Source: Pseudanabaena sp. UWO311 (lineage in GTDB: Bacteria; Cyanobacteriota; Cyanobacteriia; Pseudanabaenales; Pseudanabaenaceae). From it: a stretch of 62,234 nt of DNA. Positions 29,561 through 32,773 of this stretch are shown one piece after another. A model generated the notes under the pieces. That model ran no database searches. It had not been told where the DNA came from and saw nothing but the letters and a program-made list of their open reading frames with translations. The translations under genes and the position numbers were made by a program. Location: the NCBI RefSeq assembly GCF_006937785.1, contig NZ_SJEE01000031.1, forward strand, positions 1 to 62,234. The letters run 5' to 3'. Each line of letters opens with the position of its first letter. The first letter of the stretch is position 1.

Positions 29561-29580
29561 GATACTAAGATCAAAAAGTT

Positions 29581-29730
29581 TAGGACTTACGCATCTGCCC
29601 TGCAATAAATTGCGGGCTTAAAGCTTAAACCTGTTGAAACAGGTTGGTTTGAGGCTTTCTTTAGTCAGTTTTAACTGACTTGAGCTTTGAGCCAAGAACT
29701 TTAGTTCTTGGTTGATTTGCGTAAGCCCTA
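29581..29730. mobile_element. 150-bp miniature element with TAGGRCTTACGCA ends
   Basis: Terminal inverted repeats TAGGACTTACGCA / TGCGTAAGCCCTA (one mismatch) enclose four small hairpins in inverted doublet order: palindrome, GGCTTAAAGCTTAAA, palindrome, then the reverse arrangement. The element is flanked by AAGTT on both sides (29576-29580 and 29731-29735), consistent with a target-site duplication. There is no coding capacity, so it would be non-autonomous. Confidence 0.75.
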
Positions 29731-29805
29731 AAGTTGATTTATTGAAATCAAAAAGTTATGATGGCTGAAGAATAAAGGATTTAGTGTGTTCATATTACGA
29801 AGATA

Positions 29806-30306
29806 ATGACAATTGAAATAATTAAGGCAGATCTTAGTAAGCAGGATCATGCACAAGCGTTAATTCAATTGATGAGTGAATATACCCTTGATGCAATGGG
29901 AGGTAGTCAAGATTTGTCGAAATTTGCGAAAAACAATCTAGTTGCCGAATTATCTAATCGGAGTTCTGCGCATGTCATTATCGCATTCGTCGATCATATT
30001 CCAGCAGGGTTAGCGATCTGTTTTGAAGGGTTTTCTACTTTTGCTTGTAAGCCTCTACTCAATATTCATGATCTGATTGTTTCTTCCCATTACCGAGGTC
30101 AAGGTTTGTCGAAATTAATACTCCAGATGGTTGAGGCGATCGCCTTTGATTTAGGATGCTGTAAAATAACGCTAGAAGTCTTAGATGGCAATCATGTGGC
30201 TAAAGCTGCATATAAATCTTTTGGTTTTAGTGGTTATGAACTAAACCCAGAAATGGGTCATGCGTTATTTTGGGAGAAGAAGTTATCGATCGCAACATGT
30301 CCTTAA
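29806..30306 (+). CDS. GNAT-family N-acetyltransferase
   Basis: 166 residues. The acetyl-CoA-binding core is HDLIVSSHYRGQGLSKLILQMVEAIA (motif A), followed by CKITLEVLDGNHVAKAAYKSFGF (motif B). The substrate is unknown. The C-terminus overlaps the start of recJ by 10 bases, so the two are translated from one message. Confidence 0.85.
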   Translation: MTIEIIKADLSKQDHAQALIQLMSEYTLDAMGGSQDLSKFAKNNLVAELSNRSSAHVIIAFVDHIPAGLAICFEGFSTFACKPLLNIHDLIVSSHYRGQGLSKLILQMVEAIAFDLGCCKITLEVLDGNHVAKAAYKSFGFSGYELNPEMGHALFWEKKLSIATCP

Positions 30307-32603
30307 CTAATTGGCACATTGCAGAAACAGTTGAAATACCGACTTGGTTAAGCGAAAAAGTTGGTAAATTTGCGGCGCAGTTACTTTGTCAGAGAGGAAT
30401 CATTGCTCCTGAGCAAGTAGAATCATTTTTAGATATTACTGCTTATCAGCCTACTAGTGCCTTTGCTTTTGGCGCAGAAATGGAACAGGCGATCGCCCGA
30501 ATCCAGAAAGCCTATGAACAGGGAGAAGCCATCGCAATTTGGGGGGATTTTGATGCGGATGGGATTACCGCGACTTCAGTTTTATGGGAAGGATTAGGAC
30601 AATTCTTTGCTCAAGGCGATCGCTTAGTCTTTTATATACCCGATCGCCTCAAAGAGTCGCATGGGATCTCGATTAGAGGCTTAGATGAGCTGCGATCGCA
30701 ATGTCAGTCAGCAGGAAAATCACTAAGCTTAATCATTACTTGTGATACGGGTAGCACTTGTTTGGATGCGTTAACCTATGCTCAGGATTTAGGAATTGAT
30801 GTGATTGTCACCGATCACCATACTTTGCCAGATCAGCGTCCACCAGTAGCCGCAATTATCAATCCGCGTTACTTGCCAAATCAGCATCCATTATTTAATT
30901 TGTCAGGAGTAGCAGTTGCTTACAAATTAATGGAAGCATTGTATGAAACCTTACCAGAAATCCCCCAGAAGCCCTTAGAGGACTTGTTGGATTTGGTTGC
31001 GATCGGCTTGGTTGCTGACCTAGTCAAACTTACGGGAGATTGTCGATATCTCGCTCAAAAGGGAATAGAGGTATTGCGGCAAAAGCAACGCCTCGGTGTC
31101 CGAATGCTCTTGGAGCAATGTAAAAGAGTCGGCGATCGCCCGATAGATATTAGCTTTGGGATTGCTCCGCGTATTAATGCCGTGAGTAGAATTTGGGGCG
31201 ATGTACGGAAATGCGTAGAATTGTTGACTACTCGCGACGAGAGGGTTTGCAAAGCGCTAATTGAACAGACTGAACTGGCTAACACACAGCGTAAAGCTTT
31301 ACAAAAAAAGGTTTTTAAACAGGTTCAAGCTAAAATTGAACAACTCGATCTTTCTACGACAGGGCTGATTGTGCTGGCCGATCCGCAATGGTCGGTGGGT
31401 GTTTTGGGCTTAGTGGCAGGACAAGTGGTTGCTGAGTATGGTCGTCCGACGATTCTCTGTACCGTTGAAGATGGAATTGCTAAAGGCAGTGCGCGATCGC
31501 TAGAGGGTATAAATCTTTACGATCTCCTCAAAGGACAAGAACATCTATTGCTCAGCTTCGGCGGACATCCGCTTGCAGGTGGTTTGAGCTTTGCACTTGA
31601 GAATTTGCAGTTACTTACTGAGTCTATCGATCAGAAATTTTGGAGTCAATATGGTCAATTGCAAAGTAAGGCGATCAACATTGATTTAGAAGTAAATATT
31701 GCCGATCTTAGCAAAGAATTATTTAATGAATTTAAACAACTAGAACCTTTTGGTATGGGTAATCCCTACCCCAAGTTGTTAGTTCGTGATTGTCAATTTT
31801 CAGAGATATCCAATGCGAATATTCGCACTCAAAAAGGACAGAAAGTTGAATATATTAAGACGGAATTTACTCTAAGCGATCGCAATGGCAATCAAATTTA
31901 TGGCGATTGGTGGGGGCATTATAGTTATGAGTTGCCTGATACAAGTTGTGATGTGGTGATTGAACTAGTTGATAATGCTTTTCGCCGACGTTATGATGTG
32001 CGATTGCTTGATTTTCACGCTCAGAGTGCGCCTCTGAGCGCTGAGTTGCCATCCCTCGCAACATCAATCAAAAATTCTGATCTAAATCTCAAGATTATTG
32101 ATTGGCGCGGGCGTGATCTGGTTGAGCTTAATGACCATTCGTCAGCAACTATCTGCGATCGCTGTCCCCAAAGTTGGCAAGATGTCAACACCATTATTGA
32201 ACGCGCCCATCAAGCTAATCAGGCTCTCGCTTTGGTATATCCTCGACCTGAACAGATAAATGGAGCGATCGCTTGGCAAACCTTAGTGGGAGTTGCCAAA
32301 TATCTGAGTCGGACAGGTAAGGAAATTAGGCGATCGCAACTAATCGCAAAATTAGGAATTGATGATCAAGATGTGTTGCAGATTGGATTTGAGGAGCTTC
32401 AACAATATGGTTATGCTGTGAATGCGATCGCTGTTCCATCAGATGATAGAGATTTGATTATTCGTATAAACTCTATTGCATCTATATATGATGGATTTAC
32501 AACAGCCAATCCATTTATCCAAGCCGCGAATGAGTTAGCATTTCAGCAACAATTTTTTGATCGTCAGTTGTTGAAGAACGCCCTGCACTCAAGTGCGGGC
32601 TAA
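30297..32603 (+). CDS. recJ: single-stranded-DNA-specific 5'-3' exonuclease RecJ
   Basis: 768 residues from the ATG at 30297 (MSLTNWHIAE). The DHH domain has IWGDFDADGITATSVL, TCDTGS and VIVTDHHTLP, which bind Mn2+, followed by NPRYLPNQHPLFNLSGVAVAYKL. The DHHA1 region has SFGGHPLAGGLSFAL. The C-terminal 200 residues exceed E. coli RecJ, as in other cyanobacterial members. It acts in recombination and mismatch/base excision repair. The stop codon and last residues (ALHSSAG) come from a repeat element at 32580. Confidence 0.93.
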   Translation: MSLTNWHIAETVEIPTWLSEKVGKFAAQLLCQRGIIAPEQVESFLDITAYQPTSAFAFGAEMEQAIARIQKAYEQGEAIAIWGDFDADGITATSVLWEGLGQFFAQGDRLVFYIPDRLKESHGISIRGLDELRSQCQSAGKSLSLIITCDTGSTCLDALTYAQDLGIDVIVTDHHTLPDQRPPVAAIINPRYLPNQHPLFNLSGVAVAYKLMEALYETLPEIPQKPLEDLLDLVAIGLVADLVKLTGDCRYLAQKGIEVLRQKQRLGVRMLLEQCKRVGDRPIDISFGIAPRINAVSRIWGDVRKCVELLTTRDERVCKALIEQTELANTQRKALQKKVFKQVQAKIEQLDLSTTGLIVLADPQWSVGVLGLVAGQVVAEYGRPTILCTVEDGIAKGSARSLEGINLYDLLKGQEHLLLSFGGHPLAGGLSFALENLQLLTESIDQKFWSQYGQLQSKAINIDLEVNIADLSKELFNEFKQLEPFGMGNPYPKLLVRDCQFSEISNANIRTQKGQKVEYIKTEFTLSDRNGNQIYGDWWGHYSYELPDTSCDVVIELVDNAFRRRYDVRLLDFHAQSAPLSAELPSLATSIKNSDLNLKIIDWRGRDLVELNDHSSATICDRCPQSWQDVNTIIERAHQANQALALVYPRPEQINGAIAWQTLVGVAKYLSRTGKEIRRSQLIAKLGIDDQDVLQIGFEELQQYGYAVNAIAVPSDDRDLIIRINSIASIYDGFTTANPFIQAANELAFQQQFFDRQLLKNALHSSAG

Positions 32604-32773
32604 AAGCAAAAGTCCTCTGAAGAGGACTAAAAAATGTACTAACAAGATAGATGAATTCGCTAGATGCAAATAACTGAGCAAAGCAGTTCTATTGCCGCAA
32701 CGGCAAAAGAAACCCGCCATATTCAGTCCTCTGAAGAGGACTTTAGCTCTTAGCCTGCACTTGAGTGCAAGGC
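32580..32773. mobile_element. 194-bp inverted doublet of palindrome-GGCTAAAAGC-palindrome modules
   Basis: Left module 32580-32632 and right module 32722-32773 are inverted copies of each other with a few differences: a GCACTCAAGTGC palindrome, linker GGCTAAAAGC (right copy GGCTAAGAGC), and GTCCTCTGAAGAGGAC. About 90 bases separate them. The same design, with other stem sequences, is found at 29581-29730. The left end overlaps the recJ 3' end. Confidence 0.78.

Follow-up and report, generated by a model that had tools for sequence, protein, structure and literature searches.

What moves the four-hairpin elements that lie between genes of the cyanobacterium Pseudanabaena sp. UWO311? We addressed this question on the 62,234-nt contig NZ_SJEE01000031.1 (assembly GCF_006937785.1), which in its full length is called the window here and which holds two such elements, at 29.6 and 32.6 kb. 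A preliminary description of the window had compared them with bacterial interspersed mosaic elements (BIMEs), doublets of repetitive extragenic palindromic (REP) sequences moved by REP-associated tyrosine transposases (RAYTs) of the Y1 type. Our findings suggest that the elements, hereafter modules, are probably non-autonomous repeats of a HuH/Y1 transposase, TnpAY1 subclass 1.2, and in this resemble REPINs (REP doublets forming hairpins). The comparison held as far as REPIN/BIME-like doublets are tied to a Y1 (HuH) gene; the gene is not a RAYT, and the 29.6-kb copy was placed as part of a miniature inverted-repeat transposable element (MITE) with terminal inverted repeats (TIRs).

Modules in the window and in its genome

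Direct reading confirmed two four-hairpin elements, at 29598-29711 and 32581-32772, and matches to a covariance model (R1) agreed with the positions and head-to-head arrangement given in the preliminary description. Each element comprises two facing half-modules, in the order P1, CTNANAGC linker, three bases, P2, spacer, P2′, linker′ and P1′. At 29.6 kb, the plus-strand half-module (29598..29645; R1 match of 68 bits) is made of P1 CCTGCAA-TAAA-TTGCGGG, linker CTTAAAGC and P2 AACCTGT-TGAA-ACAGGTT, and its minus-strand partner (29663..29711; 64.6 bits) of P1 CCAAGAAC-TAAA-GTTCTTGG, linker CTCAAAGC and P2 AGTCAGT-TAAA-ACTGACT. At 32.6 kb, P1 CCTGCAC-TCAA-GTGCGGG, linker CTAAAAGC and P2 AGTCCTC-TGAA-GAGGACT on the plus strand (32581..32628; 70.1 bits) face P1 CTTGCAC-TCAA-GTGCAGG, linker CTAAGAGC and P2 AGTCCTC-TTCA-GAGGACT on the minus strand (32725..32772; 64.8 bits). 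That the linker is conserved while the stems are not proved valid within the genome and across the class, with one correction: the leading GG belongs to the P1 stem as its inner foot, and the linker proper is CTNANAGC. Within the window alone, GGCTNAAAGC had 3 matches against 0.94 expected, and 6 of 100 shuffles were equally high, which is not clearly above chance. The genome-wide linker search that had been proposed was clearer, with 75 sites for GCGGGCTNAAAGC (at most one mismatch) in the 5.21-Mb genome and 12 for the reversed control pattern.

R1 was built from 74 distinct half-modules (alignment A1) of the window's genome only, and its register is a compromise (the stem of P1 comes in several lengths, and its apex has 2 or 3 nt). 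Among the best 150 candidates scored, at least 146 half-modules were recognised in this genome at E≤0.01, including 66 head-to-head pairs and 14 singles; the two P2 hairpins were 17 nt apart in 37 of the 66 pairs. The half-modules of A1 came from 109 that passed a pairing filter in the fetched loci, filter failures lying outside the count. These 109 presented 26 versions of P1 and 42 of P2, with few loops: TCAA (93) or TAAA (15) in P1, and TGAA (86), TAAA (10) or TTCA (9) in P2. In A1, 195 cells were altered on both sides of a pair, compared to 63.5 in shuffles, and the structure surpassed every slid version; 97.0% of the cells were paired, a figure flattered by the pairing filter.

Modules were not confined to this strain. 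Of 58 genomes, relatives together with the window's own, 32 had matches; in the genus 21 of the 26 genomes did, with counts, capped at 105, from 1 to over 100. Three plasmid records showed partial matches. Two kinds of local variation were also seen in the modules. Partial tandem duplications of TTGAGTGCAGGGC-like sequence occurred at the outer edge of P1 in loci L023, L034, L061 and L164, perhaps by hairpin-loop slippage, and other small palindromic elements lay inside the P2–P2′ spacer at L008, L009, L020, L034 and L062.

A Y1 transposase gene between modules

The 32.6-kb element lies between dprA and a convergent recJ-like gene (DHH, RecJ_OB and DHHA1 domains; 30270..32603, plus strand), whose TAA stop codon (32601-32603) falls within the module linker. 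At the same recJ–dprA site, a relative that is 94-96% identical over two aligned pieces (genome G016) carries a module, a Y1 open reading frame of 136 amino acids and a second module. The window half-module 32581..32628 corresponds to the left G016 module in its outer half; the two share the bases CTAAAAGCAAAAG, which differ in the right module. From P2 onward the window element matches the right G016 module, with an altered P2′ loop and two base differences in the interior (32629..32724), the rest of which is identical. The window's 32.6-kb module is a recombinant of the two modules flanking the G016 gene, the outcome expected if the gene and one module had been lost between repeats. Loss of the gene in the window's lineage is the likelier direction; in the opposite one, gene and module may have been gained in G016. 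Genomes G019 and G011 have none of the modules between recJ and dprA, and in the pieces read from G018 and G005 the recJ end is without a module. At another G016 locus (L160), a bit of flank and a half-module form an 81-bp tandem duplication relative to locus L017 of the window's own genome.

The G016 protein matched the Pfam family PF01797 (Y1_Tnp) with 92.9 bits and the NCBIfam IS200 transposase model NF033573 with 77.1 bits (cut-off 55), while the REP_Tyr_transpos model NF047646 gave no match to it at E≤0.001. Its sequence matches in the PDB were eight IS200-family transposases, for example that of ISHp608. An AlphaFold model based on 29 sequences reached a mean predicted local distance difference test score (pLDDT) of 91.1 and a predicted template modelling score (pTM) of 0.85; its closest PDB folds were the TnpA proteins of ISDra2 and IS608, and the RAYT structure 4er8 ranked 30th (E 1e-5). 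Residues H53, H55, Y114, Q118 and H122 were invariant in 29 aligned proteins of two clades, A and B. HuH and the Y---Q--HH motif were each present in 32 of 33 group A proteins. The latter also occurred in 16 of 17 group B proteins and at 32 of the 41 named loci described below, and in none of seven weak Y1 homologues. The protein fits TnpAY1 subclass 1.2 of Quentin et al. 2018, where it is filed by motif only (HuH, W-Q and Y---Q--HH). It is not a RAYT (TnpAREP): it passes the IS200 model, is not matched by REP_Tyr_transpos at E≤0.001 and shows the Y---Q--HH signature.

In the window's own genome we found no such subclass 1.2 gene. The preliminary description had let its idea depend on further modules and on a RAYT-like gene flanked by them; further modules exist in this genome but no such flanked gene was found there, so that on this genome alone the refutation it named would half apply, and the idea was rescued only by the related species, in which the flanked Y1 gene is found. 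Three other Y1 proteins of the own genome matched the RAYT model best (65.5, 78.6 and 69 bits, where the cut-off is 80). They were rejected as partners of the modules: no module was found in the flanks examined, and the genes sit among different repeats of their own. By eye, these were AGATCTCCGACTTTTT; GGGGTAGAGCATTTGCG and GGGCAGAGCATTCCCG; and GGGGCGAGCACGGGGGCATCGCCCC. The three genes, at L001, L002 and L003, and their palindromic repeats are probable RAYT/REP systems.

Within the genus, the gene was detected at E<1e-40 in three of the 26 genomes (G016, G013 and G006), each time between modules. The G013 and G006 genes, recorded by name under Pseudanabaena frigida and Pseudanabaena sp. CAN_BIN31, lie at other sites and encode proteins 58 and 54% identical to that of G016. 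No relation between module copy number and gene presence was visible in the genus, the window's genome having its at least 146 half-modules without the gene and G013 having 11 with it.

Next to the gene, modules were the rule. A search of 388 genomes of the class gave gene matches (E≤1e-20) in 51, with 63 matches in total; 42 of the 51 genomes had a single match and nine had 2-4. We examined 50 of the 63, namely the 30 best loci and 20 further ones (further copies in G160, G225, G167, G185 and G077 and the matches in G224, G142, G275, G055 and G240 were left out). In 29 of the 30 top-scoring genomes an R1 match (E≤0.01) lay no more than about 200 bp from the best homologue (largest distance 202 bp, gene ends being approximated), on both sides in 19, only 5′ in three and only 3′ in seven; L240 was the sole locus of the 30 without one. 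Since R1 was trained on the window's genome alone, the matches in other genomes are independent of its training. Of these 29 loci, 21 had a complete head-to-head doublet on one side or both, some with several in tandem. Of the half-modules nearest the gene, 35 turned P1 towards it and 13 P2. Among the 20 further loci, taken by score, R1 found modules at L243 and L245 only. A second model, R2, added L246 (E 1.5e-5) and, weakly, L248 and L260. R2 was made from alignment A4, 41 hand-picked half-modules mostly beside genes, and covers the long-arm two-nucleotide form, short-arm and three-nucleotide forms being left out.

The association was also seen at loci taken from named records. R2 modules (E≤1e-3, flanks of up to 1.2 kb a side) were present at 32 of 41 named loci and on both sides at 21; without five genes already seen, the counts were 28 of 36 and 17. 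The loci with modules included Candidatus Parabeggiatoa, a Thiotrichaceae bacterium, Chloroflexi, Desulfobacteraceae and KSB1. At E≤1e-3, no module was found at L343, L352, L353, L354, L357, L358 and L360, nor at L361 and L362, which are partial matches; modules at L343 and L357 appeared at E≤0.01. None of ten control Y1 loci (the seven weak homologues and the three own RAYT-like genes) had modules. Ten genomes of 5.2-7.2 Mb held from 7 to at least 149 R2 half-modules, about one per 37 kb at most, a density so low that it does not explain the adjacency of modules to the gene. When the best 15 matches per genome were scored, 31 of 34 genomes with the gene (about E≤1e-44) had at least five module matches, compared to 75 of the 354 without it; the gene genomes without any module match were G140 and G182.

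Fixed loops and linkers, variable stems

We then compared the parts of the modules. In the 41 half-modules of A4, 121 cells were altered on both sides of a pair (32.1 in shuffles) and 12 of 18 pairs showed two-sided change (7.3 in shuffles); 94.4% of the cells paired, and slid versions reached at most 54.3%. There were 20 different left arms in P1 and 17 in P2. Loop 1 was TNAA in all 41 half-modules and loop 2 in 38; the linker columns C, T and A were invariant, and the stems averaged 1.22 bits. The loops are polar, reading TNAA on the strand with the order P1-linker-P2 and TTNA on the opposite one. The stems thus covary while the TNAA loops and the CTNANAGC linker are nearly fixed.

A sister clade of the transposase, clade B, follows this design but differs in loop and linker. 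Near 13 of the 14 lowest-scoring homologues (L249-L262) we noted, by eye, hairpins with stems of 7-8 bp and mostly GNAG/CTNC loops, such as AGTCCGC-GCAG-GCGGACT and AACCCAC-CTTC-GTGGGTT. At L253, L256, L257 and L260, P1 was of the GGCGATT-NNN-AATCGCC kind, with mostly GTCTACACAAACAA-like linkers. In the tree, the 12 clade B rows branched together, separate from the others (90/87, not starred), and L246-L248 grouped with clade A; outgroup placement is unsafe in this tree because of long branches (RAYTs, L208, L214 and L360), and only the clade B split was used. Genomes G154, G196 and G335 hold both clades.

In the mechanism that we propose, P1 and P2 would fold on single-stranded DNA, for example the lagging-strand template, and a TnpA dimer would read loop, linker and fold but not stem sequence. 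By cutting and rejoining single strands, TnpA would copy or move the doublets, and we infer that the modules are mobilised in this way. An enzyme reading loop and linker would leave stem sequence free, so that stems could drift by mutation and arm-to-arm correction. Copies persist where no gene is found, as in the window's genome, and some are additionally carried in an unrelated 150-bp TIR MITE, among them the window's 29.6-kb copy. Passages of Corneloup et al. 2021 (PMC8266576) describe RAYT and IS200/IS605 enzymes as strand-specific and as contacting loop bases or stem irregularities, with T10 of IS608 and T14 of ISDra2 as loop contacts.

The likeness to REPINs or BIMEs and their RAYTs (REPtrons) lies in a low-copy HuH-Y1 gene with adjacent palindromic repeats that occur elsewhere as high-copy inverted pairs. 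The differences are several. The transposase here is by motif of class 1, subclass 1.2, whereas RAYTs are of class 2; the units are two hairpins joined by a CTNANAGC linker, four hairpins per doublet; there is no constant 5′ GTAG or GTGG foot, the feet of P1 varying (by eye) and the fixed element being the CTNANAGC linker before P2; and the stems diverge between and within genomes. The passages available of Bertels and Rainey 2011 (PMC3116915) and of PMC3733652 concern, respectively, REPINs beside RAYTs in Nostoc punctiforme and GTAG REPs in cyanobacteria, and as far as they tell both involve another enzyme class. The published subclass 1.2 shares with our proteins the HuH, W-Q and Y---Q--HH motifs, length, low copy number and occurrence in Cyanobacteria. 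Quentin et al. 2018 (PMC6006769) enter "no" for REP in the table and state that this subclass is generally without typical terminal IS200 structures; here, in contrast, hairpin modules adjoin 29 of 30 top-scoring members, and module-flanked homologues also occur in Chloroflexi, Desulfobacteraceae, KSB1 and Thiotrichaceae.

Whether subclass 1.2 TnpA and the four-hairpin doublets form a separate, cross-phylum counterpart of RAYT/REPIN with a code of loops and linkers is, in our estimate, about evenly balanced. Under such a code the enzyme would read strand-polar TNAA loops and CTNANAGC in clade A, or CTNC/GNAG loops and a GTCTACACAAACAA-type linker in clade B, and would ignore stem sequence, the stems diversifying under pairing alone; both clades, with a separate module type for each, can share one genome.

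Competing explanations and the spread of modules

Several observations weigh against modules as repeats of this transposase. The rows used for covariation were selected by pairing or by the structure model and lean towards the structure; further pair types were not above shuffles either in A1 (78 of 500 as high) or in A4 (183 of 500). The Fisher p of 2.7e-16 for the difference between genomes with and without the gene is too strong, as species are related, gene-adjacent modules count themselves and some of the 354 genomes hold weaker homologues. At least one module was present in 124 of these 354, the window's genome included, which argues that the gene is not needed for modules to persist. 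Few modules of the window's genome have AGTCCTC, the stem found at the G016 gene locus. When 78 own modules were set against about 1.2 Mb of G016, where 19 of them had both flanks, no clean single-module insertion boundary emerged. Some own modules are missing at the matching G016 sites, with edges blurred by other palindromes or MITE remnants, and the clearest such site (C1:137939-138052) can be read as insertion or deletion. Finally, at least 17 of the 66 own pairs sit in a TIR MITE, and of the 29 loci, 10 have a complete doublet to each side of the gene and 11 to one side, the remaining 8 having half-modules only.

These last loci, and L222 with exactly one half-module per side, P1 towards the gene, are also what modules would look like as the ends of an ordinary IS200/IS605 element (such as IS608 or ISDra2) with derivatives of the palindrome-associated transposable element (PATE) type, left- and right-end hairpins being fused after gene loss or joined in tandem. 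The likeness extends to the TnpA fold, hairpin substrates and repeat-mediated gene loss: the protein is nearest to the TnpA of IS200 both by sequence and by fold, and the 32.6-kb copy of the window resembles the repeat-mediated core deletion that leaves Haloquadratum PATEs with fused ends, as described in passages of PMC3119063. We nevertheless consider this origin unlikely. IS200/IS605 elements usually have one left and one right end, whereas complete doublets, some in tandem, lie beside the gene in most of the 29 loci; most positive genomes have a single gene match; and the multi-copy unit of the window's genome is the doublet, not a gene-bearing element.

The 29.6-kb copy raised a further alternative, in which modules spread mainly as TIR-MITE cargo of a classical transposase and the Y1 link is old or incidental. 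This copy lies inside a 150-bp MITE whose 13-bp TIR TAGGACTTACGCA (29581..29593, plus strand) is repeated with one mismatch on the minus strand (29718..29730), and AAGTT flanks the element on both sides as a 5-bp target duplication (29576..29580 and 29731..29735). At the same site G019 has a single AAGTT and no MITE, another palindromic insert lying a few bases upstream there. Given the TIRs, the 5-bp duplication and the empty G019 site, the 29.6-kb copy was inserted as MITE cargo, by a TIR element with target duplication rather than Y1 chemistry. The two elements of the window are not one kind of insertion, since the 32.6-kb copy is not inside such a MITE. Other modules of the genome are likewise carried by a TIR element with 5-bp target duplication. 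TIR ends (at most 3 mismatches over 12 bases, within 32 bases) were found on both sides of 17 of the 66 own pairs, 11 of them with an exact 5-bp duplication, on one side of 9 and on neither side of 40, and five shuffled versions of the TIR end never gave a both-sides match. G016 has ten listed copies 95-99% identical to the window's MITE. The 40 pairs without such an end, the association with the Y1 gene that persists in other families and phyla, and the 93-bp MITEs with the same TIR and no module make spread mainly as MITE cargo very improbable. Among the three tnpA loci of the genus, those of G006 and G013 have the modules closest to the one inside the 29.6-kb MITE.

Further palindromic elements were seen beside these. 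The MITEs of about 93 bp in the own genome (L135-L140) have TAGGACTTACGCA-like ends and a core around GGGGCAATTCATGAATTGCCCC. At shared intergenic sites of relatives (L309, L301, L270, L177 and L181) there are long, almost perfect palindromes, several of them with a core resembling GGCGCGAAGCGCC; the arms vary between sites, which gives the impression that local sequence was used to build them.

That modules are kept for a host role in RNA or DNA (terminator, mRNA end or supercoiling site) selecting the fold would suit the intergenic window copies, one of them between convergent recJ and dprA, and a covariation that alone does not separate RNA from single-stranded DNA, and is the least probable reading, given copy numbers from 0 to over 100 within one genus, no Rfam match at gathering threshold in six loci and modules that adjoin one transposase family across phyla.

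The modules apparently constitute a large mobile-repeat family hitherto undescribed. No earlier description was found in the literature searched, which did not extend to subscription papers, ISfinder and supplements, so that one may exist there; the cyanobacterial small dispersed repeats of Elhai 2008 and the Nezha MITE, taken by title and mention alone, are alike as short mobile cyanobacterial repeats. As repeats of TnpAY1 subclass 1.2, the modules would be the likely substrate of a transposase subclass for which none had been listed, and would account for a large class of the hairpins found between cyanobacterial genes. The recognition rule proposed here is plausible and testable. One and the same repeat occurs in two contexts, next to a single-strand transposase and as the cargo of a classical MITE. 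With variable stems and fixed loops and linker, the family is a natural test of hairpin discrimination by HuH enzymes, a question studied on RAYT pairs and on IS608 and ISDra2.

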